A stretch of 64,000 bases of DNA from Hyphomicrobium sp. (GCF_019753045.1 NZ_JAIELN010000005.1:186001-250000); one strand, 5' to 3'. Shown: positions 18,459 to 60,118, counted from the stretch's first letter. Numbers and translations: made by a program. The notes: generated from the letters alone by a model not told the origin.

Positions 18459-18627
18459 GAGGCTCTCGCGATCGCTTCACTGCGGCCGCCAACGATCTCT
18501 GGTGATTATCTCCGTCGATCATCTCTGTTGATTTTGGGGCTCCTTTTTGCCATCAGCCGCAGAGGTCGAGCCGCGCTCCCCGTGGGCCGCTCTCCCCGGT
18601 CGATTGGCGCAGATGGGAAATCACAAC

Positions 18628-19509
18628 ATGGCGAAGGTTGCGTGGCTCGGGCTCGGTGTCATGGGCTATCCCATGGCGGGTTATCTGAAAACGCGCGGCG
18701 GCCACGACGTTGTCGTTTACAATCGGACGTCTGCCAAGGCCGAGAAGTGGAAAGAGCAGTTCGGCGGAACCGTCGCGGCAACGCCTGCGGAAGCGGCGCG
18801 CGGCTGCGATGCCGTATTCGCCTGCGTCGGCAACGACGACGACGTGCGGAGCGTCACGATCGGGCCGGACGGCGCGTTCTCAACCATGCGGCCCGGCGCG
18901 ATCTACATCGATCACACGACGGCTTCGGCGAAGGTCGCGCGCGAATTGTCGGAGATCGCGGACACGAGGGGTTTCAAATTTCTCGATTGTCCGGTTTCGG
19001 GTGGACAGTCGGGCGCGGAGAACGGAACGCTGACAGTGATGGCGGGCGGCGACGCGAGCGCCTTCACCACCGCCGAGCCCTTGATCAGGAATTTCGCACG
19101 CAGCATTCGGCTTCTCGGCCCTTCGGGATCGGGACAGCTCGCCAAGATGGCAAATCAGATCGCGATTGCGGGCCTCGTGCAGGGGTTGGCCGAATCCATT
19201 CATTTCGCGGAATGTGCGGGGCTCGACATCAAAGCGTTGATCGAAACGATCTCGAAAGGCGCGGCGCAGTCCTGGCAGATGGATAATCGCTGGCAGACGA
19301 TGCACGCCCGCAAGTTCGACTTCGGCTTTGCCGTCGACTGGATGCGCAAGGATCTCGCGATCTGCTTCGACGAGGCTCAGTCGAACGGCGCCGATCTGAC
19401 GGTTACGAAACTCGTCGATCGATTTTACGCCGAGGTTCAGGAACTCGGCGGACGCCGCTGGGATACGTCGAGCCTTATCGCCCGGCTCGACGCGAAGAAA
19501 GAAACTTGA
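18628..19509 (+). CDS. NAD(P)-dependent beta-hydroxyacid dehydrogenase
   Basis: A 293-aa member of the 3-hydroxyisobutyrate dehydrogenase / tartronate semialdehyde reductase family. The Rossmann motif LGLGVMGYPMAGYL opens the protein, followed by DHTTAS, the substrate loop DCPVSGGQSGAENGTL and the catalytic Lys in GQLAKMANQIAIAG (about residue 171). The exact substrate cannot be assigned. The start at MAKVAWLG (18628) is chosen because the N terminus then matches the family; MGNHN at 18613 is possible. Two structured palindromes lie in its 3' gap. Confidence 0.88.
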   Translation: MAKVAWLGLGVMGYPMAGYLKTRGGHDVVVYNRTSAKAEKWKEQFGGTVAATPAEAARGCDAVFACVGNDDDVRSVTIGPDGAFSTMRPGAIYIDHTTASAKVARELSEIADTRGFKFLDCPVSGGQSGAENGTLTVMAGGDASAFTTAEPLIRNFARSIRLLGPSGSGQLAKMANQIAIAGLVQGLAESIHFAECAGLDIKALIETISKGAAQSWQMDNRWQTMHARKFDFGFAVDWMRKDLAICFDEAQSNGADLTVTKLVDRFYAEVQELGGRRWDTSSLIARLDAKKET

Positions 19510-19524
19510 GAAAAGTTTTTGTTT

Positions 19525-19560
19525 GCCGCGTGCGACTCCCCTCCGGGGAGCCGGCCGCAC
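19525..19560. repeat. structured palindrome family, copy A (right arm truncated)
   Basis: GCCGCGTGCG, A, CTCCCC-TCC-GGGGAG, CCGGC, CGCAC. It shows the family plan seen in copies B-F: outer stem, unpaired A, 15-nt inner hairpin, unpaired CCGGC, outer stem. Its right outer arm is cut to five bases, so only a 5-bp outer stem forms. It lies 16 bp after a stop codon, in a convergent gap. Confidence 0.85.
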
Positions 19561-19574
19561 AAGAGGCTTGGTCG

Positions 19575-19613
19575 CCGCGTGCGACTCCCCTCCGGGGAGC
19601 CGGCCGCACGCGG
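19575..19613. repeat. structured palindrome family, copy B
   Basis: CCGCGTGCG, A, CTCCCC-TCC-GGGGAG, CCGGC, CGCACGCGG. The 9-bp outer stem and 6-bp inner stem are perfect. It is a near-exact direct copy of A, ends one base before the stop codon of the facing Lrp gene, and is therefore within the 3' ends of two convergent transcripts. Confidence 0.9.
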
Positions 19614-19614
19614 A

Positions 19615-20115
19615 TTATGCTTCCGCCCGCTCGCTCTTCGACGAGCGTTCGGTGATCGCGAACTGCAGCGGCAATGCGGTCGTGTACTTGATCTGCTCCA
19701 TCGCAAAAGCAGATGAGACCTTGGCGATGTCGACGCGCGAAATGAGCTTCTTATAGAAAGCGTCGTAGGCGGCGATGTCGGGGACCGCGACGCGGAGCAG
19801 ATAATCGATGTCGCCCGACATGCGGTAGAATTCGACGACCTCGGGAAATTCTGCGACGGCTTCGTGGAACTTCTCGAGCCACGTGAGCGAATGCTTATCC
19901 GTTTTAATGGAGACGAACACCATCACTCCCGCGTTCACCTGATGCGCGTCCAGGATCGCAACGCGGCGTTGGATAACGCCCGATTCCTCAAGTTTTTGAA
20001 CGCGGCGCCAGCACGGTGTGGTCGATAGCCCGACCTCCTTGCCGATGTCGGCTACCGGGCGAGTACAGTCCTGCTGAAGAATTCGCAGGATCTTGACGTC
20101 CATTTCGTCCAACAT
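19615..20115 (-). CDS. Lrp/AsnC family transcriptional regulator
   Basis: A 166-aa protein. The N-terminal winged helix-turn-helix (MDVKILRILQQDCTRPVADI, then GLSTTPCWRRVQKLEE) is followed by a RAM/ACT-like effector domain (about residues 65-150) with MSGDIDYLLRVAVPDIAAYD. These proteins form octamer-type discs and respond to amino acids. The upstream gap (20116-20309) is strikingly AT-rich (TTTGAAATTAATATTTTCTA), suited to autoregulatory Lrp sites. The gene adjacent on the 3' side encodes a beta-hydroxyacid dehydrogenase, but convergent orientation gives no evidence of control. Confidence 0.93.
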   Translation of the reverse strand: MLDEMDVKILRILQQDCTRPVADIGKEVGLSTTPCWRRVQKLEESGVIQRRVAILDAHQVNAGVMVFVSIKTDKHSLTWLEKFHEAVAEFPEVVEFYRMSGDIDYLLRVAVPDIAAYDAFYKKLISRVDIAKVSSAFAMEQIKYTTALPLQFAITERSSKSERAEA

Positions 20116-20309
20116 TCGGCCGCCCTTCGATCAAGAAACATGATTTTGCGTAATCTGCGATTTTGAAATTAATATTTTCTAATTTGCCGGTGTCAATGAG
20201 AGCATTAGCATTTTTTTTCGTTTGAACGACATTCTACCTTGATCGGGCAAGGTGTCTCCCACATGTATGGGCCTTCCCCCTTGGCAATAACGGTTCTTGG
20301 ATTCTCACC

Positions 20310-20750
20310 ATGCCCCCCATCAGGCCCATCTCTGACAGCGTCGCCATAAGCGGTTGGCTGGATGAAGAGGACTTTGCGGAGGTCAAGTCGCTTGGCTTCG
20401 ACAAAGTGATCAACTTCCGCCCGGACAACGAGGCTCGCGATCAGATTCCGAGCACTGAAGCCGAAGCCGCCGCCCACCGCTCGGGCCTCGACTACGTGCA
20501 GATCCCGGTCACGCGACAGGACCTCTTCAAGGACGACATCGTCGCCCTCGCTGCGAAGGAATTCGCATCGGGCGGGCGCACGCTCGCCTATTGCGCGTCC
20601 GGCCAACGAGCCGCCATTGTCTGGGCTGCTGCGACGGCGCGATCTCATCCCGTCGACGAAGTTCTTTCCACGGTTGGGGCCGGCGGCTTCGACCTCCGGC
20701 TCATCCGCGACGATCTCGAGGCGCAGGCCCATCGCGGGGAAGCCTCTTAA
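20310..20750 (+). CDS. TIGR01244 / BLH-phosphatase-like protein
   Basis: A 146-aa protein with the beta-lactamase-hydrolase-like phosphatase fold (DUF442): ISGWLDEEDFAEVKSLGFDKV, then VINFRPDNEA and the catalytic loop YCASGQRAAIVW, a C-x5-R motif like that of dual-specificity phosphatases and TIGR01244 sulfur transferases. In other proteobacteria a similar domain is fused to the persulfide dioxygenase Blh; here it stands alone. Whether it acts as a phosphatase or in sulfide metabolism is open. A structured palindrome (copy C) starts 3 bp after the stop. Confidence 0.82.
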   Translation: MPPIRPISDSVAISGWLDEEDFAEVKSLGFDKVINFRPDNEARDQIPSTEAEAAAHRSGLDYVQIPVTRQDLFKDDIVALAAKEFASGGRTLAYCASGQRAAIVWAAATARSHPVDEVLSTVGAGGFDLRLIRDDLEAQAHRGEAS

Positions 20751-20753
20751 GTT

Positions 20754-20794
20754 GCGCTCGGCGACTCTCCTTCGGAGAGCCGGCCACCGAGCGC
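20754..20794. repeat. structured palindrome family, copy C
   Basis: GCGCTCGGCG, A, CTCTCC-TTC-GGAGAG, CCGGC, CACCGAGCGC. It has the same plan as the other copies, with different bases in both stems: inner CTCTCC/GGAGAG and outer GCGCTCGG/CCGAGCGC, with one mismatch near the bulge. It fills the 50-bp gap between convergent genes, starting just after one stop and ending 7 bp before the other. Confidence 0.88.
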
Positions 20795-20800
20795 GAGAAC

Positions 20801-21418
20801 TCAGGCCTGAGCGCTCGGCCTAGACGAGACCTCGCGATACCATCGCATCGCATTGCCGAAGTCGTCCGGCCGGCCGAGGCGCGCCGGCTTCATGAAGTCG
20901 ATGGCGACGAGCGCCGTTATGTCGGCAATCGAGTAGGTGTCGCCTGCCAAAAAGGGGCTTTCGGCCAGACGCGCGTCGATGCGCGTCAGTTCGTGCGCGA
21001 CCTTTTCCTTGTTGGCTTCACCCCACGCCGCGACTTGCGGCACCTCGAGATGCGCCATCTTGGGGTGCAAATGCCTGAAGACGGCAAAAACCGCATTGAA
21101 TAATCCGATCTCGATACGCCTGTTCCACATCTCCACCTCGGCTTTGCCGACGGGGCCGATGCCGAACAGCGCCGGTTCCGGCGAGATCTCTTCGAAATAG
21201 CGGCAGATGGCGACGGTCTCGGAGATCGCGCGGCCATCATCGAGAATGAGGACCGGCACGCGAGCCCAGGGATTGAGCTTCGCGAAGTCGCCTGTCTTCA
21301 AATCGTCCGTCATCATGTTCAGTTCTTCGCGAGGGACCTCAATTCCCTTTTCGGCAAGGAAGATATTCACGCGTCTTGGACTTGGCGCTGCATGTGTTTC
21401 GATGATCCGCAACTTCAT
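20801..21418 (-). CDS. glutathione S-transferase
   Basis: A 205-aa GST with an N-terminal thioredoxin-like domain (MKLRIIETHAAPSPRRVNIFLAEKG; NPWARVPVLILDDG; the glutathione-contacting ISETVAICRY) and a C-terminal all-helical domain with the DITALVAIDF structural motif. Ser or Tyr catalytic assignment is unclear (APSPRR). The start codon overlaps the stop of the upstream nuclease gene as TAATG, so the two are translationally coupled. Substrate unknown. Confidence 0.9.
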   Translation of the reverse strand: MKLRIIETHAAPSPRRVNIFLAEKGIEVPREELNMMTDDLKTGDFAKLNPWARVPVLILDDGRAISETVAICRYFEEISPEPALFGIGPVGKAEVEMWNRRIEIGLFNAVFAVFRHLHPKMAHLEVPQVAAWGEANKEKVAHELTRIDARLAESPFLAGDTYSIADITALVAIDFMKPARLGRPDDFGNAMRWYREVSSRPSAQA

Positions 21419-22008
21419 TACCTCGTGTCTTCAGAATTGTGCCGCGCACGCCACTTTTGCGGCTCTTCGAATTCGCCGGACCAGACGCCGCGTCGCGATG
21501 ACCTGGCATCGGCTTCATCTTCAGCATAGCCGCCATAGGCGACCGCCATGCCTGCCTGGACCATGGCGGCATTGATGTCGCGACCGCCAGCAGTGCAGCG
21601 CGCGAGAAGCCGGCCGTACCGATCTCGTTCGCGGACATCGCATGAGACTATCTCGCCGCCGATTGCGCGGGCGAGTTCGAGCTTCGCCTCGTCTCCGCAG
21701 TTCCATGTCTGATCGCCGCGCGAACACGTCTGGCGGCCTTCGGGCGCATCTATTCCCAGAAGCCGCACTTCGTTTCCACCTACGAACAGGCTGTCGCCAT
21801 CGATTGGCCGGGCGGCGCCGCTGATGCTGGCTGGGAACGGTTCGTTCTGTGCCCGGCGGACGCGCCAATGGTCGCGGCCCACAAAAATGGCTGCCGCCGC
21901 CAGCGTTAACATCAATACGAGCCTTACATAAGCCCGCCGGGGCCTTACATAGGCGTATCTTCGGCGTCTCTGAGACGAGCGCCATTGCTTCGGCGGTATG
22001 GGTTGCAT
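21418..22008 (-). CDS. thermonuclease (SNase-like) family protein
   Basis: A 196-aa protein with an N-terminal membrane segment after an Arg-rich stretch (VRLVLMLTLAAAAIFVG, about residues 29-45), then an SNase domain: DGDSLFVGGNEVRLLGIDAPEG, QTCSRGDQTWNCG, and CDVRERDRYGRLLARC, including the Arg and Asp/Glu residues of staphylococcal-nuclease active sites. It is likely tethered to the inner membrane and facing the periplasm. A stop/start overlap with the downstream GST indicates a two-gene operon, an unobvious pairing. Confidence 0.87.
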   Translation of the reverse strand: MQPIPPKQWRSSQRRRRYAYVRPRRAYVRLVLMLTLAAAAIFVGRDHWRVRRAQNEPFPASISGAARPIDGDSLFVGGNEVRLLGIDAPEGRQTCSRGDQTWNCGDEAKLELARAIGGEIVSCDVRERDRYGRLLARCTAGGRDINAAMVQAGMAVAYGGYAEDEADARSSRRGVWSGEFEEPQKWRARHNSEDTR

Positions 22009-22129
22009 AACAAACCCCTCAACCAGTTCGGCGAGACTTTAAGTCTTGCTTTAACAAATTGACGCCAATTTACAGGCGTTGCGCGGGCACACCCCCGTAC
22101 GACCCCATCTATAGGACGCGGCTCGCGGT

Positions 22130-23764
22130 ATGGACGATAACGCCTACAGCGTCGAACCGGCAGCTGAAATGCCAGCTCGCCCGGCACGACGAGGCCGTTC
22201 TCGGGATGATCTCAAATCATTCCGGGATAAGCTGACTCACGGCACCGTCCATAAGCCGGAATTCGAGTACGAACTGCTCACGATGTTCGCGCGCAACGAG
22301 ACCAGCGCGCCGTTCGCGATGCCGGCCCTTTGCTTCATCTTCTACATCACGTCGATGTTCTGGGCGTCGTTCACCGAAGCGACGACTTGGATCGCCATCG
22401 TTTCCATCTCCCGCGTCTACATGCTGGACCAGTGCCGGCGGTTGCTTTCAATTCCCCGCACAGAAGTCAACGTCGGCCAGTGGCGCCGCCATTTCAACCG
22501 CATCGAACTCGTCAACGGATTCGCGCTGGCGGCTTTCGCACTCATCGGCATCTCGATCCACAATACCGAGAGCGCGTCGCCAGCGACATTCTCATCGCAT
22601 GTCTTCATTTTCGCGACGTTGATGGTTGTGCTCGCCATCCGCATGACGTTCGCGTCGACACTTCCTCGGCTTTTCCTCGCGGGCACCGTTCCCATGACGG
22701 TCGCGGTCGCCGGCCGACTGTTCTCGCTTGGCGATCCGTTCTATTTCGCGCTCGCCTCGATGGCCATCGGCATCCATGTGTTCTTCGTCTATCTCGCGCG
22801 CGGCTTGCACTCGACAGCGCTCGCCATGGTGGAGTTCCGCGCCGAGAAGGACAACCTGATCTCGGAACTCGAAGAAGCGAGCGCCATTTCGGACGAAGCA
22901 CGCCGCCGCGCCGAGGCTGCCAACAAAGCCAAATCGCGCTTTCTGGCGACCATGAGCCATGAGCTTCGCACGCCGCTCAATGCGATCATGGGTTTTTCCG
23001 AAGTCATGGAAAAAGAGCTGCTCGGACCGATCGGCAACGACATTTACCGGGACTATGCGCGCAACATCTATCAGAGCGGCGATCACCTTCTCTGCATCAT
23101 CAACGAGATCCTCGACCTCTCGCGCATCGAGGCGGGCCGCTACGATCTGCACGAGGAAACGATGCGCCTCACGGACATCGCCGAGGATTGCCAGCGCCTC
23201 GTCAAGATCAAGGCCGATGCGAAAACCCTTTCGATCGTCGAAGACTTTGCCGCGGACTTGCCGCATATCTGGGCCGATCCGCGGGCCCTCCGTCAGATCT
23301 GTCTCAATCTGCTGTCGAACGCGTTGAAGTTCACGCCGAAGGGCGGACGCATCACGCTGATCGTGGGCCACACTCAGGATGGCGGGCAGTTTCTAACGGT
23401 CGCCGATACCGGCCCCGGCATTCCAAAGGAAGAGATTCCACGCGTTCTCCAGGCCTTCGGCCAGGGCTCGCTTGCGCATGAAACGGCCGAGGGCGGAACG
23501 GGTCTCGGGCTTCCGATCGTTCAGAACCTCATTCATTTACATGGCGGCACGTTCGATCTGCAGTCGGAATTGCGCAAGGGAACGGAAGTTACCGTGACGC
23601 TTCCGCCCCAGCGCGTGCTCCAGGCCATTGCGCCATTGCAGCCGCTTGGGCAGGAGCGTCACCGCGATCCCGCGCCGCGTCCGGCGCGTCAGCCCCGCAT
23701 GCGCATGACCCCAGCGGGCGTCCCCGATCAAGTCGCCTACCGAGTTGCGGGCGATGCACGATAG
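22130..23764 (+). CDS. membrane-bound sensor histidine kinase
   Basis: A 544-aa kinase. An N-terminal cytosolic stretch is followed by about six transmembrane helices (residues about 60-230, for example ALCFIFYITSMFWASF and TLMVVLAIRMTFA), with no recognisable periplasmic sensor domain. A short coiled-coil precedes the HisKA domain with the phospho-accepting His in FLATMSHELRTPLNAIMG. The HATPase domain has the N box (LLSNALKFTPKGG), G1 box (VADTGPGIP) and G2 box (GGTGLGLPIVQNL). It resembles the PleC/DivJ-type kinases of alphaproteobacteria. No response regulator is adjacent, so its partner is unknown. A Pro/Arg-rich tail ends the protein. Confidence 0.9.
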   Translation: MDDNAYSVEPAAEMPARPARRGRSRDDLKSFRDKLTHGTVHKPEFEYELLTMFARNETSAPFAMPALCFIFYITSMFWASFTEATTWIAIVSISRVYMLDQCRRLLSIPRTEVNVGQWRRHFNRIELVNGFALAAFALIGISIHNTESASPATFSSHVFIFATLMVVLAIRMTFASTLPRLFLAGTVPMTVAVAGRLFSLGDPFYFALASMAIGIHVFFVYLARGLHSTALAMVEFRAEKDNLISELEEASAISDEARRRAEAANKAKSRFLATMSHELRTPLNAIMGFSEVMEKELLGPIGNDIYRDYARNIYQSGDHLLCIINEILDLSRIEAGRYDLHEETMRLTDIAEDCQRLVKIKADAKTLSIVEDFAADLPHIWADPRALRQICLNLLSNALKFTPKGGRITLIVGHTQDGGQFLTVADTGPGIPKEEIPRVLQAFGQGSLAHETAEGGTGLGLPIVQNLIHLHGGTFDLQSELRKGTEVTVTLPPQRVLQAIAPLQPLGQERHRDPAPRPARQPRMRMTPAGVPDQVAYRVAGDAR

Positions 23765-23791
23765 TTGTTTTGCGTTTGAGGTTCGGCGTTG

Positions 23792-24484
23792 ATGCTCGGC
23801 ATTCTACTCATGGTCATTCTCGGTCTCGGCTCTCTTCTCGCCGCGACCCTTTTCGGCGGCGTGAAGCTCGATGCCGTTCCAGATTTGCCGATTGCCGCAA
23901 CGGTGATCGCGATACTCGTCGCCATCTATTTGGCGACGCTGCTCAATCATCGCGGCGAACGGCGGCTTGCTTTGTGGCCGACGCTCGCTGCTTGCATCTC
24001 GGGCGCCGTGCTCGTCGCGGGCGCGTTCAACAAGAACACGCCGCTGGTCATCGCGGACTTCTTCGCCGGAGCGACCGCTGCCGCAGATGCCCCCCCGACA
24101 AGGCGGGATGCATCTGCATCGGTGCGCATCCGCCGCAACGAGGACGGCACTTTTTTTGCCAATTCCGAAGTCAACGGACAAGCGATGACCATGCGGATCG
24201 ACAATGGGTCGGCGACGGTCGTGCTCCGGCAATCCGACGCCGAGAAGGCAGGCATCGATGTCAGCAATCTCGCTTTCGATACGCCTTTCAAAACCGCGAA
24301 CGGAACGAATTACCTCGCGCCCGTTCGATTGAAGTCGGTACGCATCGGCCCCTTGGCGATCGACGACGTCGAAGGGCTCGTCGCGCGGCCCGGAACCCTT
24401 AACGAAAACCTGCTCGGTACAAGTTTTTTAAGACGTTTGGCGTCTGTTGAACTCACCGGAAATTTTGCAACGCTTCGGCAGTAG
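23792..24484 (+). CDS. TIGR02281-type clan AA aspartic protease with DNG active site
   Basis: A 230-aa protein with three N-terminal membrane helices (about 5-25, 33-52, 62-80), a linker, and a C-terminal retropepsin-like domain (about 110-230). The active-site triad reads MRIDNGSATVVL (D137-N138-G139), where the family has D-T/S-G. The rest (SDAEKAGIDVS, TANGTNYLAPVRL, NLLGTSFLRRL) matches the family well. The Asn substitution could reduce or abolish proteolysis. It sits directly upstream of an intact paralogue, with 48 bp between them. Start ATG 23792 has GAGG upstream; the TTG one codon earlier is the track's choice. Confidence 0.82.
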   Translation: MLGILLMVILGLGSLLAATLFGGVKLDAVPDLPIAATVIAILVAIYLATLLNHRGERRLALWPTLAACISGAVLVAGAFNKNTPLVIADFFAGATAAADAPPTRRDASASVRIRRNEDGTFFANSEVNGQAMTMRIDNGSATVVLRQSDAEKAGIDVSNLAFDTPFKTANGTNYLAPVRLKSVRIGPLAIDDVEGLVARPGTLNENLLGTSFLRRLASVELTGNFATLRQ

Positions 24485-24532
24485 AGCGCCGATCACGATC
24501 TTGAACTGCTCTCTTGGACAGGGGCATCTGGA

Positions 24533-25108
24533 ATGTCATCGGCAACGGTCAGCCTCTTCGGGTCTTTTGCGCTCGCCGCTCTCGGAGCGGCAGGCCTCGC
24601 ATATACTCTGACGCATCCCGGCGTTCTCGTCTCGGCGTTCGATCATGCGAAGGCGACGACGGGTCTCTCCGCGCAGACAGCGGCCGGTCAAAGCGATGCC
24701 CCGGTTCTCGACGCCCAGGAAGCGACACGTGTTCAATCCGGCACCGTGACATTGCCCGCCGGTGACTATGGACATTTCCGGGCCGAGGCCGACATCAACG
24801 GGCGCGATATCGATGTGATGGTCGACACGGGCGCTTCCCTTGTCGCGCTGACTTACGAAGACGCGCGCCGGGCCGGCATTCTCGTGAAGCCCTCGGACTT
24901 CACCCACACGGCCCAGACGGCCAACGGAATCGCCCGAGTTGCGCCTGTCACAATTCCGCGCATCAGCATCGGCGACATTACGGTACGGAACGTGGCCGGA
25001 GTCGTGTCCGAGCGTGGCGCATCTGAACGGACGCTGCTCGGCATGTCGTTTCTAGGGCGGCTGTCCCGTGTCGAAATGCGCGGAGGAACGCTCGTGCTGC
25101 AAGAGTAA
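24533..25108 (+). CDS. TIGR02281-type clan AA aspartic protease
   Basis: A 191-aa single-pass protein: one N-terminal hydrophobic helix (VSLFGSFALAALGAAGLAYT), a spacer, and a retropepsin-like domain from about residue 70. The catalytic motif is intact, VMVDTGASLVALTYEDARRAGI (D98-T99-G100-A101), with TANGIARVAPVTIPRISIG and LLGMSFLGRLSRVEMRGGTL following, as in TIGR02281. The probable site of action is the periplasm. It is a tandem paralogue of the upstream DNG protein. Physiological substrates of this family are not known to me. Confidence 0.88.
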   Translation: MSSATVSLFGSFALAALGAAGLAYTLTHPGVLVSAFDHAKATTGLSAQTAAGQSDAPVLDAQEATRVQSGTVTLPAGDYGHFRAEADINGRDIDVMVDTGASLVALTYEDARRAGILVKPSDFTHTAQTANGIARVAPVTIPRISIGDITVRNVAGVVSERGASERTLLGMSFLGRLSRVEMRGGTLVLQE

Positions 25109-25246
25109 CTTTCCCCTTTGCCGCAATTTTACGCTCCACTATTCCACTATTCCGCCCTCAACATTGCTGATAGAGCGCAACCCGGAACCCCGCCCTGGTC
25201 GCAGTGCGTTAGGTTCCCCGAATGAATCACGTTCGAGGAGAGGCAT

Positions 25247-26752
25247 ATGCTGCCGAAGCCACGCGCCGACCTGAAGCCGAATACCGCCGACTTTGAGCGC
25301 CTGCCCCTCGTCAAGCCAACCGGCTTTCGCGAATACGATGCGCGGTGGCTCTACCCGCAAGAAATCAACCTCATGGGCCTCAATGCCGTCGGGCTCGGCA
25401 TGGCGACCCTCTTCGCGCGGCGCGGCGTTCCGAAGCGTCTCGTGGTCGGCCACGACTACCGGTCGTATTCCGCCGCCGTTAAACAGGCGCTCATGACCGG
25501 CCTTTTGGCCGGAGGCTGCGAAGTTCACGATATCGGATTGGCCCTGTCGCCGATGGCGTACTTCGCGCAGTTCGCGCTCGACGTCGAAGGCGTCGCAATG
25601 GTGACCGCGAGTCATAACGACAACGGCTGGACCGGCATCAAGATGGGATTGGCGCGTCCACTGACGTTTGGGCCCGACGACATGTCGGAATTGAAGTCCA
25701 TTGTTCTCAACGGCGAGTTCGAGCCGAAAACAGGCGGCCGGTATATCTTCGTGCCGGATCTGGCCGAGCGTTACATCAAATCGCTGACGGATCGTCCGAA
25801 GCTCAAGCGCCGCCTGAAAGTCGTCTGTGCGAGCGGCAACGGCACGGCGGGCGCCTTCGCGCCGCAAGTGCTCGCGGCGATCGGCTGCGAAGTCGTGCCT
25901 CTCAACACCGACCTCGACTACACGTTCCCGAACCACAATCCCAATCCCGAAGACATGAAAATGCTTCACGCGGTTTCGGCGAAGGTTCTCGAAACCGGCG
26001 CGGATGTCGGGCTTGCTTTCGACGGCGACGGGGACCGTTGCGGCGTCGTTGCCAACGACGGGCATGAGATCTTCGCGGATAAGGTCGGCGTGATGCTGGC
26101 TCGCGATCTTTCCGCGATCTACAAGAACGCGAAATTCGTCGTCGACGTGAAATCGACGGGGCTTTTCTCGACCGACCCGGTGCTGGTCGCCAACGGCGCG
26201 ACCACGAGCTACTGGAAGACGGGTCACAGCTACATCAAGCGTTATAATTTCGAGCACAAGACGCTCGTCGGCTTCGAGAAGTCGGGCCACTTCTTCTTCA
26301 ACGAGCCGCTCGGCCGGGGCTACGATGACGGGCTCGTTTCGGCCATCGCCGTTTGCGACATGCTCGATCGCAGCCCGGGGAAGACGGTCGCCGATCTGCG
26401 CGACGCGCTGCCGAAGACTTATGGCTCGCCGACTATGTCGCCTCATTGCGATGACGAGAAGAAGTACGGCGTGGTCGATCGCATCACAGAACATTATACG
26501 CGCCAGAAGGAGAGCGGCGGACACGTCGCCGGACAGGCGATCCGCGATCTCATCACCGTCAACGGCGTGCGCGTGATGCTGGAAGACGGCACGTGGGGTC
26601 TCGTTCGCGCCTCGTCGAACAAGCCCGAACTCGTCGTCGTCGTCGAAAGCCCGACGTCGGAAGCAAACATGAAGGCGATCTTCAAGGACATCGACCAGCA
26701 GCTGGCGCGCTTCCCCGAGGTCGGCGAATACAATCAGAAGATCGCAGTTTAA
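25247..26752 (+). CDS. phosphomannomutase/phosphoglucomutase
   Basis: A 501-aa alpha-D-phosphohexomutase that shifts phosphate between C6 and C1 of mannose or glucose, feeding nucleotide-sugar synthesis for envelope polysaccharides. The four domains are evident: the phosphoserine loop VTASHNDNGWTGIK (about residue 125), the metal-binding FDGDGDRCG (about 260), the sugar-recognition loop GFEKSGHFFFN (about 345) and the phosphate-contacting C-terminal domain (RASSNKPELVVVVESP). The start ATG 25247 has AGGAGAGG upstream. Two structured palindromes follow the stop within 5 and 60 bp. The antisense 461-aa ORF is a shadow. Confidence 0.93.
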   Translation: MLPKPRADLKPNTADFERLPLVKPTGFREYDARWLYPQEINLMGLNAVGLGMATLFARRGVPKRLVVGHDYRSYSAAVKQALMTGLLAGGCEVHDIGLALSPMAYFAQFALDVEGVAMVTASHNDNGWTGIKMGLARPLTFGPDDMSELKSIVLNGEFEPKTGGRYIFVPDLAERYIKSLTDRPKLKRRLKVVCASGNGTAGAFAPQVLAAIGCEVVPLNTDLDYTFPNHNPNPEDMKMLHAVSAKVLETGADVGLAFDGDGDRCGVVANDGHEIFADKVGVMLARDLSAIYKNAKFVVDVKSTGLFSTDPVLVANGATTSYWKTGHSYIKRYNFEHKTLVGFEKSGHFFFNEPLGRGYDDGLVSAIAVCDMLDRSPGKTVADLRDALPKTYGSPTMSPHCDDEKKYGVVDRITEHYTRQKESGGHVAGQAIRDLITVNGVRVMLEDGTWGLVRASSNKPELVVVVESPTSEANMKAIFKDIDQQLARFPEVGEYNQKIAV

Positions 26753-26756
26753 TATT

Positions 26757-26797
26757 GGCGCCGGCGACTCGCGTTCCGCGAGCCGGCCGCCGGGCGC
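26757..26797. repeat. structured palindrome family, copy D
   Basis: GGCGCCGGCG, A, CTCGCG-TTC-CGCGAG, CCGGC, CGCCGGGCGC. The inner stem is perfect. The outer stem has one base fewer on the left arm than copy E. It begins 4 bp after the phosphomannomutase stop codon. Confidence 0.88.
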
Positions 26798-26811
26798 GGA
26801 GTTCTAGGTTT

Positions 26812-26852
26812 GCGCCCGGCGACTCGCGTTCCGCGAGCCGGCCGCCGGGCGC
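26812..26852. repeat. structured palindrome family, copy E
   Basis: GCGCCCGGCG, A, CTCGCG-TTC-CGCGAG, CCGGC, CGCCGGGCGC. It is the best-formed member: a perfect 10-bp outer stem and 6-bp inner stem. It is a direct neighbour of copy D in the same convergent gap. Confidence 0.92.
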
Positions 26853-26884
26853 GGGATTGCTTCGTCGTCAGTGCCACATGTGTC

Positions 26885-26923
26885 GCGCTGGCGGCCGGCT
26901 CCGCGTAGCGGAGTCGCCAGCGC
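26885..26923. repeat. structured palindrome family, copy F (inverted)
   Basis: On the minus strand: GCGCTGGCG, A, CTCCGC-TAC-GCGGAG, CCGGC, CGCCAGCGC. The element is reversed relative to A-E, has a perfect 9-bp outer stem and a different inner stem, but keeps the bulge A, CCGGC and a T-N-C loop. It ends 3 bp before the stop codon of the facing TauE/SafE gene. Confidence 0.9.
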
Positions 26924-26926
26924 CAA

Positions 26927-27733
26927 TCAAAGAAGCGTCCAAAGAAAGCGAGCGACGACGGTCGAGATGAAGACCGCGAACGCCAGTTCGAGCGTCCGTT
27001 TCGAAATGCCGTGCGCAACCTTCACGCCCAAGGGTGCCGTCAACACCGCGAGCGGAGCTATAACGCACGCGCCGAGGTTGACGTAGCCCAGCGATAGCGG
27101 CGGCAAGTCCGCTTCGCCCCAGCCCGAAATAATATATCCGGCGATACCGGGAACGGCGATGACCGTACCAATGCCGGTCGCGGTTCCGACGGCTCTCAGC
27201 AGCGGCATCCCGTAAAGCGTGAGCAGCGGAACGGTGAATGTCGCGCCGCCGATCCCCATGAGCGTCGAGATGAGGCCGATGATGCCTGCCGCGCCCTCGA
27301 GCCACGGCGGCCGCGGAAGCTTGCCGGCAATCTTCCAATCATCCCTGCCGAGAAACATTTTCGCGGCGAGCGCCGTGCCGAAGACGACCCAGATCCAGCG
27401 GAGCGCTTCGCTGCTGGCATAATGCGCAATGACGATGCCCGCGATCACGCCAAGGACGATCCAGGGCCCCATGCGTTTGACGACGTCGATATCGACGGTC
27501 CCTCGCGCGCGAAACGCGGAGAAGGATCGAAACACCGTCGGCGCGATGACGCCGAGCGTCGTCCCGAGCGTGACGTGCATTCTGACGTCCTCGGGAACGC
27601 CCACCACGCCGAAGGCTTCGTAGAGCACAGGCACGAGAACGCCGCCCCCGCCGATGCCGAGCAAACCTGAGAGAAACCCAGCGAGGAGGCCTGCAACGGC
27701 GAGCAGCGCGAGCAACGCGATCAGATATTCCAT
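26927..27733 (-). CDS. TauE/SafE family membrane transporter (intact copy)
   Basis: A 268-aa polytopic inner-membrane protein, starting MEYLIALLALLAVAGLLAGF, with about eight hydrophobic helices in two related halves. The first half contains LSGLLGIGGGGVLVPVL and the second STLMGIGGATFTVPLL, the paired Gly-rich motifs of the sulfite/sulfonate/organic-anion exporter family. The track's longer start (27814) extends into the dusA fragment and is rejected. The gene overlaps the left copy of an 871-bp duplication (27299-28169), so its N-terminal half has a second, truncated copy at 29802-30236. Substrate unknown. Confidence 0.9.
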   Translation of the reverse strand: MEYLIALLALLAVAGLLAGFLSGLLGIGGGGVLVPVLYEAFGVVGVPEDVRMHVTLGTTLGVIAPTVFRSFSAFRARGTVDIDVVKRMGPWIVLGVIAGIVIAHYASSEALRWIWVVFGTALAAKMFLGRDDWKIAGKLPRPPWLEGAAGIIGLISTLMGIGGATFTVPLLTLYGMPLLRAVGTATGIGTVIAVPGIAGYIISGWGEADLPPLSLGYVNLGACVIAPLAVLTAPLGVKVAHGISKRTLELAFAVFISTVVARFLWTLL

Positions 27734-28169
27734 CGATATGGCGGCGGGCATCCGGGTTGCCTCAAGCCGCGTCCGACTGGTCTTCGCGGCCGAGGCCGTG
27801 CTCGGCGAGAGCAATCGCGTCCCGCAGCACGTCGACCGTGGCGGACGGATCCGTCACTCGCTCGCTCAGCAGACGACGAAACGCCCGTCCGCGCGGCTGA
27901 CCATGATAAATGCCGAGGATGTGCTTGGTGATGTTCGACAGGCGGCCGCCGTTTTGGATATGGCGTTCCGCGTAGGGAATGAGCTTCGAGAGCGCTTCTT
28001 CCCTTGAAGGCGGGGTGGAATTCTCGCCGAATATCCAGCTGTCGACGTCTGCGAGAATGAAAGGATTTTGATAGGCGGCGCGGCCGAGCATGACACCGTC
28101 GACGTGCTCGAGATGACCGCTGGCTTCATCGAGCGTTTCGATGCCGCCATTGATGACGATCGTGAGTTC
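27299..28169. repeat. left copy of 871-bp segmental duplication
   Basis: This segment (5' half of tauE/safE plus 3' third of dusA) recurs in the same orientation at 29802-30672, at a constant offset of 2503 bp. I see no indel along its length and roughly 95% identity by eye. The left edge lies inside tauE; the right edge is sharp, where GTGAGTTC stops matching. The divergence is spread over both genes and includes many third positions, so the event is not recent. Confidence 0.93.
27762..28169 (-). pseudogene. dusA: dusA 3' fragment (truncated duplicate)
   Basis: Encodes the C-terminal 135 residues of DusA, from ELTIVINGGIETLDEASGHL to GLGREDQSDAA, nearly identical to the end of the complete gene at 30265. 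The catalytic Cys and FMN-binding front part are missing. The ORF remains open upstream to 28376 only by reading through unrelated sequence antisense-free of DusA similarity and overlapping the mgtC-like gene, so no functional product is expected. Substitutions such as DSWIFGENSTPPS versus DSRIFGENAAPAS suggest relaxed selection. Confidence 0.85.
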
Positions 28170-29801: not shown

Positions 29802-30236
29802 GAGCCATGGCGGCCGCGGAAGCTTATCAGCAATCTTCCAATCATCCCTGCCCAAAAACATTTTCGCGGCGAGCGCCGTGCCGAAGACGACCCAGATCCA
29901 GCGGAGAGCTTCGCTGCTGGCATAATGCGCAATGACGCTGCCCGCGATCACGCCAAGGACGATCCAGGGACCCATGCGTTTGACGACGTCGATATCGACG
30001 GTCCCTCGCGCGCGAAACGCCGAGAAGGATCGAAACACCGTCGGTGCGATGACGCCGAGCGTCGTCCCGAGCGTGACGTGCATCCTGACGTCCTCGGGAA
30101 CGCCTACCACGCCGAAGGCTTCGTAGAGCACAGGCACGAGAACGCCGCCCCCGCCGATGCCGAGCAGCCCTGAGAGAAACCCAGCGAGGAGTCCTGCGAC
30201 TGCGAGCAGCGCAAGCAACGCGATCAGATATTCCAT
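29802..30236 (-). pseudogene. TauE/SafE 5' fragment (truncated duplicate)
   Basis: From the ATG at 30236 (MEYLIALLALLAVAGLLAGF) the first 145 codons match the intact gene at 26927-27733, then homology stops at 29802, after KLPRPPWLS. The reading frame stays open into unrelated sequence down to 29229, producing a predicted chimera of up to 335 aa (364 aa from the track start). Only half of the eight-helix transporter remains and the second Gly-rich motif is missing, so transport is unlikely. An automated annotation might call this a full TauE protein. Confidence 0.8.
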
Positions 30237-30672
30237 CGATATGGCGGCGGGCATCCTGGTTGCCTCAAGCCGCGTCCGACTGCTCTTCGCGGCCGAGGCC
30301 GTGCTCGGCGAGAGCAATCGCATCCCGCAGCACGTCGACCGTGGCGGACGGATCCGTCACTCGCTCGCTCAGCAGGCGACGGAACGCCCGTCCGCGCGGC
30401 TGACCATGATAAATGCCGAGGATGTGCTTGGTGATGTTCGACAGGCGTCCGCCGTTTTGGATGTGGCGTTCCGCGTAGGGAATGAGTTCGGCGAGCGCTT
30501 CTCCCCGTGAAGCCGGGGCGGCGTTCTCACCGAATATCCGGCTGTCGACGTCTGCGAGAATGAAAGGATTTTGATAGGCGGCGCGGCCGAGCATGACGCC
30601 GTCGACGTGTTCGAGATGACTGCTGGCTTCATCGAGCGTTTCGATGCCGCCATTGATGACGATCGTGAGTTC
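29802..30672. repeat. right copy of 871-bp segmental duplication
   Basis: Direct repeat of 27299-28169 at offset 2503. This copy joins an intact dusA on its right and a truncated tauE on its left, the mirror of the left copy. The two copies together imply that one ancestral tauE-dusA neighbourhood was duplicated and about 1.6 kb (mgtC-like, zinc ribbon, gene remnant) now separates the copies. Confidence 0.93.
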
Positions 30673-47290: not shown

Positions 47291-47301
47291 GAGCATGGCG
47301 C

Positions 47302-47412
47302 ATAACGCCTCTAGGGTTCCGGCTTCACAAGCGTCAGGTCCGAGAGAGGCTCTCCCGCTTCGCGCGACGCGAGGCGGAGCCACGGCGGGATAAAAGCCCG
47401 GGAGACCTACAC
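47302..47412 (+). promoter_or_regulatory. guanidine-I riboswitch (ykkC class)
   Basis: The diagnostic conserved blocks are all present and in order: CTAGGGTTCCGGC, then GGTCCGAGAGAG, then CACGGCGGGATAAAAGCCCGGGAGA. These are the signature sequences of the ykkC RNA that binds guanidinium. It lies between the sigma-54 promoter and the guanidine operon, about 135 nt ahead of the first start codon. Binding should switch the operon on. A covariance search with the Rfam ykkC model would settle the borders. Confidence 0.95.
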
Positions 47413-50307: not shown

Positions 50308-50418
50308 GTGTTCACGCTTTCCGCGAGGGACGACCCTCGGCGGCTTCTGACGAACCCGGGACGGCCCGGACTGGCGCGCCAGCGTCTTGCGAGGAACGCT
50401 TCTGCTTTGAGGTCAAAA

Positions 50419-59535: not shown

Positions 59536-60118
59536 GTGCGTTGCGGCCCTGATGATTGCGGTTTCGGTCGCGTCATTGGCGGTCGCGGAAGAGGACACTC
59601 GCGTCAAAGGCCACATTGATGGCGCTCACGGCTCCGCTGCCGTGGAGCCGGCCGCGAGCGCAAACATGCGCCTCGGCACGCCATTAACCTCCGACGATAT
59701 CGCCAAGTGGGATCGCACGATCTTCCCCGATGGCCGCGGGCTGCCGCCGGGGCGCGGCTCGGCGAAAGAGGGCCGCGTCATCTACGAACAGAAATGCGCG
59801 CGTTGTCATGGCGAGCACGGCGAAGGCGGCACGTCGGAAGAACTCGTCAGCGGGCCAACGCCGCCCTCGCCCGATAATCCGAGCAAAGCGATCGGTTCTT
59901 ATTGGCCGTATGCGACGACGATCTTCGATTTCGTTCGCCGCAGCATGCCGCCTGCGGCTCCGGGTTCACTATCCGCGGATGAGACCTACGCCGTCACGGC
60001 CTACCTGCTCGCCGCGAATGCGATCATTCCGGAGAGCGCAGAGATGAATGCGGAAACGCTCGCCGCGGTGCGGATGCCGAACCGCGACGGCTTCATCTGG
60101 ATCGACGTAAAAAAGTAA
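59522..60118 (+). CDS. soxD: SoxD-like c-type cytochrome
   Basis: A 198-aa periplasmic cytochrome that takes electrons from SoxC. Signal peptide MSMLRCVAALMIAVSVASLA; heme site KCARCHGEHGEGG (C92, C95, H96); likely distal Met in RRSMPPAAPGS. It is short compared with the two-heme SoxD of Paracoccus (about twice as long), so it is a mono-heme form. The start overlaps the soxC end by 14 nt in another frame, indicating coupled translation. It converges with a porin gene only 13 bp away. A family-like palindrome (59622-59661) lies inside it. Confidence 0.87.
   Translation: MSMLRCVAALMIAVSVASLAVAEEDTRVKGHIDGAHGSAAVEPAASANMRLGTPLTSDDIAKWDRTIFPDGRGLPPGRGSAKEGRVIYEQKCARCHGEHGEGGTSEELVSGPTPPSPDNPSKAIGSYWPYATTIFDFVRRSMPPAAPGSLSADETYAVTAYLLAANAIIPESAEMNAETLAAVRMPNRDGFIWIDVKK

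Follow-up and report, generated by a model that had tools for sequence, protein, structure and literature searches.

Short imperfect palindromes that occur in high copy between genes, and in some cases within them, are best known as REP/REPIN sequences, which carry a GTAG tag and are linked to RAYT transposases. The element described here resembles them in these respects, in its preference for convergent and tandem 3' gaps over divergent ones, and in its doublets and clusters. It differs in having TTG and no GTAG at its foot, in the lack of a RAYT gene in the genome, in an additional inner hairpin that a bulged A and the unpaired CCGGC separate from the outer stem, and in stems that are very diverse around a fixed core. 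In E. coli, REPs are reported from all over the genome and on either strand (PMC12306157), whereas this element is locked to one strand in several species. The CGTC-tagged REPs of alphaproteobacteria were reported without a dedicated transposase (Di Nocera 2013, PMC3733652), so a transposase-less alphaproteobacterial palindrome such as this one has precedent; however, their CGTC end, their CCA tails and their 8-9-bp stems beginning with AT were not seen in the element. The CcrM-associated CIR repeats known from Caulobacter and Brucella (Chen and Shapiro 2003, cited here after PMC2229807) are likewise alphaproteobacterial intergenic inverted repeats carrying GANTC. They are about 110 bp long with two separate inverted repeats, whereas the element measures about 60 bp, forms one two-storey hairpin and does not keep GANTC in every subfamily. 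With prokaryotic MITEs it shares a small, non-coding, non-autonomous and presence/absence-polymorphic character, but neither terminal inverted repeats of a known insertion sequence nor, at the few presence/absence sites, a target-site duplication was seen. The element works like a REP; it is neither a GTAG nor a CGTC REP, because it has neither tag and no RAYT, and it is not a CIR, because its length and layout differ.

In the window, a 64-kb stretch of the Hyphomicrobium sp. genome, the exact-core pattern ACTCNNNTNCNNNGAGCCGGC matched six times, and all six copies that the sequence-only reading had described were found in place with the fold it gave them: a 5' outer arm, an A, CTCNNN-TNC-NNNGAG, CCGGC and an outer return arm (five copies on the + strand, one on the - strand). 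Alignment of the 46 exact-core copies of the genome revealed a full unit wider than this core. It starts on the 5' side with a T-rich tail (positions -19 to -15, about TTTTTG) and TTG at the foot, followed by a 10-bp outer stem (9-10 bp, variable), A, CTCNNN-TNC-NNNGAG, CCGGC, the return arm and G, making a single nested (two-storey) hairpin of about 57-60 bp. The foot of the palindrome is TTG on one side (last-position G in 238 of 269 copies) and G on the other, and the unpaired bases are invariant in the exact-core alignment.

The codon-usage gene call bore out the placement of all six copies between convergent 3' ends, in gaps 19510-19614, 20751-20800 and 26753-26926; gene products are named by sequence reading. 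Copies 1 (19513..19571, +; covariance model (CM) score 59.4 bits) and 2 (19562..19620, +; 56.8 bits in its own genome) share the core CCCTCCGGG and lie between a NAD-binding dehydrogenase-like gene (18604..19509, +; ORF 18547-19509) and an Lrp/AsnC-type regulator (19615..20115, -). Copy 3 (20742..20800, +; core TCCTTCGGA; 62.5 bits) begins at the stop codon of a gene at 20310..20750 (+; ORF and gene call) and occupies the whole 50-nt gap before a glutathione S-transferase-like gene (20801..21370, -). The third gap follows a phosphomannomutase/phosphoglucomutase-like gene (25247..26752, +) that ends at copy 4 (26745..26803, +; core GCGTTCCGC; 57.6 bits), continues with copy 5 (26800..26858, +; core GCGTTCCGC; 73.6 bits) and the inverted copy 6 (26878..26936, -; core CGCTACGCG; 68 bits), and is closed by a TauE/SafE-like permease gene (26927..27751, -). 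Outer pairing, described earlier as always preserved, is perfect in copies 2 (9 bp), 5 (10 bp) and 6 (9 bp), but copy 1 has just 5 contiguous outer pairs, copy 3 one C.A mismatch and copy 4 one bulge. A seventh, degenerate copy (59609..59668, +; 30.9 bits) inside a cytochrome c-like gene was recovered by the covariance model. Elsewhere, the window holds Guanidine-I (47300-47406) and Guanidine-II (50322-50369) riboswitches, two classes lying 3 kb apart on the same strand.

We compared these sites with those of the sister genome G001, which shows about 93% identity and conserved synteny over most of 310 kb and a large part of a second contig. From where its copies lie, G001 is probably H. facile DSM 1565. 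Most element sites are common to both genomes, which indicates that movement is slow. The cluster at 26745-26936 holds three copies against one in G001, where the site orthologous to copy 4 carries a single copy with core CGCTGCGCG, and both the extra tandem copy 5 and the inverted copy 6 are absent. By alignment and translation, copy 7 is a roughly 57-nt in-frame insertion that is missing from the G001 orthologue. The few presence/absence sites compared showed no clean empty site with a target-site duplication. At two shared sites (window 20742 and 26745) the site was kept and the inner cassette differs from that of G001, whose orthologue of copy 3 has the core TCGTTCCGA; such changes suggest conversion or replacement between copies. 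Several neighbouring observations may be recorded here. An in-frame copy lies inside a MazG-like gene (by sequence reading) at C2:29542-29600 of the own genome (L281 9542-9600), and G001 has a shorter remnant of the element there. A dense cluster of copies in mixed orientation lies beside uvrA and ssb at C13:51000-63500 (L295, L296), and amid it is a nucleotidyltransferase and SLATT-like pair, CBASS-like by sequence reading. The window also contains an 871-nt tandem duplication of 95% identity (27299-28169 and 29802-30672), which takes in the start of a TauE/SafE-like gene together with the end of a dihydrouridine-synthase-like one; the G001 alignment breaks nearby.

The stem changes between copies, first noted as compensatory, proved to be genuine covariation: the covariation score was 0.548 compared with 0.136 in the shuffle control, with 152 double-change cells against 43. 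Among 269 distinct copies from all loci, 70% had a perfect 9-bp Watson-Crick outer stem, whereas arms matched between different copies were perfect in only 2.5%. The perfect outer stems took 71 distinct forms, and similarity among the outer 5' arms of different copies was only 58%. If selection acted on RNA of the element strand, G.U pairs should be accepted and A.C pairs not. The mismatches were about evenly divided (G.T 20, A.C 18), and because the two are equally common, the stem pairing looks DNA-level rather than RNA-level. A selected RNA fold is thus opposed by the lack of a wobble excess and also by an orientation that ignores gene direction. The inner hairpins fall into few recurring cassettes. 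Cores TCCTTCGTC, present in 25 of 261 copies from all loci, leave two of the three variable inner pairs unformed; this cassette has multiplied in several species without those two pairs, so perfect inner pairing is not needed for spread.

Placement relative to genes bears on the alternative that the hairpin acts in the 3' ends of convergent transcripts, stopping exonucleases or ending transcription from both sides. The gaps that held copies in the stretches sampled from five genomes numbered 61, of which 33 were convergent, 23 tandem and 5 divergent, compared with 138, 584 and 278 of 1000 background gaps of at least 60 nt. The convergent share was therefore 54% against 14% (Fisher P 9e-15), with genes called by a purpose-written codon-usage script that may be wrong in single cases and with own-genome and G001 loci that are partly orthologous and so not fully independent. 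The exclusively convergent placement claimed for the window copies accordingly holds for those six, but genome-wide it describes only about half of the occupied gaps. For the 64 copies with a stop codon on their 5' side, the median distance to it is 15 nt, and in 34 of them it is 20 nt or less. This enrichment and proximity favour a 3'-end RNA function, as do gaps of only 50 nt with no other content and the same placement of REP families elsewhere (PMC3733652). However, no T-run followed the stem on either strand in the 269 copies: the 3' side is G/A-rich, and, read from the opposite strand, the stem runs into the A-rich complement of the T-rich tail. At C13:119144 a copy separates a stop codon from an intrinsic terminator shared by the own genome and G001, direct evidence that termination at this site is not due to the element. 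The bidirectional terminator proposed earlier finds no support in either observation. Moreover, the fold is asymmetric, yet orientation does not follow gene direction: copies are 15+/2- in ++ gaps, 10+/2- in -- gaps and 42+/5- where the flanking genes converge, and an orientation set by gene direction was rejected on these counts. G.U is not in excess over A.C, and copies are missing at some sites in sister species. Taken together, we regard a 3'-end RNA element as unlikely.

One chromosome strand carries nearly all the copies in several species, on both sides of dif and whatever the gene direction. The closed 4.6-Mb chromosome of G003 has 30 exact cores forward and 2 reverse, and other closed or nearly closed genomes gave 44/11, 27/6, 5/51, 40/5, 21/1 and, more weakly, 37/16 (bias tested by per-genome binomial P). 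G003 position 1,795,155 is what we take to be a dif-like site, with three mismatches to the E. coli-type core; in sampled stretches, GC skew and KOPS polarity flip there. Copies numbered 14+/1- to one side of it and 16+/1- to the other, and their staying + across the flip rejects a replichore-dependent orientation in G003. The lock depends on the lineage, since copies occur on both strands in contigs of G006 and G011 and, among the matches listed, apparently in H. sulfonivorans records too. One chromosome arm of the closed genomes G003, G007 and G018 (L106-L165) has strongly positive GC skew at fourfold sites and the other arm has almost none, although intergenic skew and KOPS do change sign. 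We considered an ancient inversion of a whole chromosome arm combined with lagging-strand insertion, which would also account for the arm whose fourfold-site skew is near zero. On the other hand, copies are gained and lost between sister species, and the few gains observed in the own genome are again mostly +. A further conjecture, to which we give little credence, is that spread or maintenance of the elements depends on a process able to tell one strand of the whole circular chromosome from the other, whatever the direction of replication and irrespective of transcription; this could happen, for example, if one chromosome strand entered or was processed in its entirety as single-stranded DNA. 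If this were true, the copies would be a fossil record of a chromosome-strand-specific process.

The bulged A brings a GANTC site, as GACTC, to about 61 of 76 full-length CM matches, and this raises the alternative that the element is a DNA site for a protein that structures the chromosome or acts in the cell cycle, such as a site linked to CcrM (GANTC) or one for a nucleoid or condensin protein. GANTC density in the elements is 10 times that of coding DNA, proteins with a CcrM-type RAMA domain occurred in 22 of the 23 genomes searched, and the concentration of copies on one chromosome strand in several species would also fit. Nevertheless, a recurrent subfamily has GACACGCG in place of GACTC (L295 12248, L296 2030, L308 15966, L309 2377, L316 14410), in which GANTC is lost (GACAC) and most copies have an A.C mismatch in the inner stem, and this weakens a constant role for GANTC. 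The elements carry merely 83 of 3305 sampled GANTC sites, and the strand lock crosses dif, unlike the polar motifs of FtsK or SMC, and is weak or absent in some congeners. A structuring site is therefore improbable in our judgement.

The 4.52-Mb genome contains 46 exact cores compared with 0 for the reversed control pattern, which places the element far beyond chance. A covariance model built from the copies returned 110 matches up to E 1, about 106 of them below E 0.01, so the repeat is a genome-wide family and not a local accident. The element was present in all 21 Hyphomicrobium relatives searched and in several further genera of the family (up to 92 candidates scored per genome), and in none of the 24 other families of the order searched. 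Among the matches listed, almost all named records with the element were Hyphomicrobium or Hyphomicrobiaceae, and the few scattered records outside Hyphomicrobiaceae are taken to be chance or misbinned. No curated Rfam family matched the copies at gathering thresholds, and literature searches for a Hyphomicrobium repeat returned nothing relevant. Chance or merely GC-rich palindromes, which are common in so GC-rich a genome, are refuted by the empty control and stand against the invariant unpaired bases and strict taxonomic limits, leaving next to no room for that explanation.

A RAYT/REP transposase gene, expected for a REP-like mobile element, did not turn up. With PF01797 searched in the own genome and 60 relatives, no Y1/RAYT transposase reached threshold in the own genome or in 20 of 21 congeners, and control profiles behaved as expected. 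A few Y1 genes were found, in G021, G025 and G030, none with a directly flanking copy. RAYT as the mobiliser was rejected on these results. The REP-like character itself stands, with dispersed and mostly intergenic copies, tandem and inverted doublets, and presence/absence differences between sister species; the RAYT partner does not. We conclude that the element is probably a REP-like, non-autonomous repeated DNA of Hyphomicrobium and near relatives, without GTAG or CGTC tags or a known mobiliser. As single-stranded DNA, each copy would fold into the two-storey hairpin, whose constant unpaired parts (foot, bulged A, CCGGC and TNC loop) may serve as recognition marks for a putative trans-acting protein that copies or moves the element. 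Complementarity of the variable stems would persist because pairing matters, or is re-established, at the level of DNA, possibly by hairpin-templated correction or by conversion between copies, and not for an RNA function. That copies survive chiefly after stop codons and in convergent gaps may mean that they are least harmful in such places, and local duplication would give rise to the tandem and inverted doublets. Several findings weigh against a REP-like repeat: the own genome and 20 of 21 congeners yielded no mobilising enzyme, the Y1 genes of G021, G025 and G030 have no copy close by on their flanks, the sites compared included no clean empty site with a target-site duplication, the many sites shared with G001 speak for slow movement, and lagging-strand transposition does not predict the strand lock.

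That lock, unexpected from lagging-strand transposition and extending across dif, poses the question of what marks one strand of a circular chromosome. The element adds a REP-like class without a defining tag or transposase, and none was found described for this family in the literature searched. It also provides a sharp case of stem covariation within a genome, which is datable through sister species and can be used to test palindrome correction at the DNA level.
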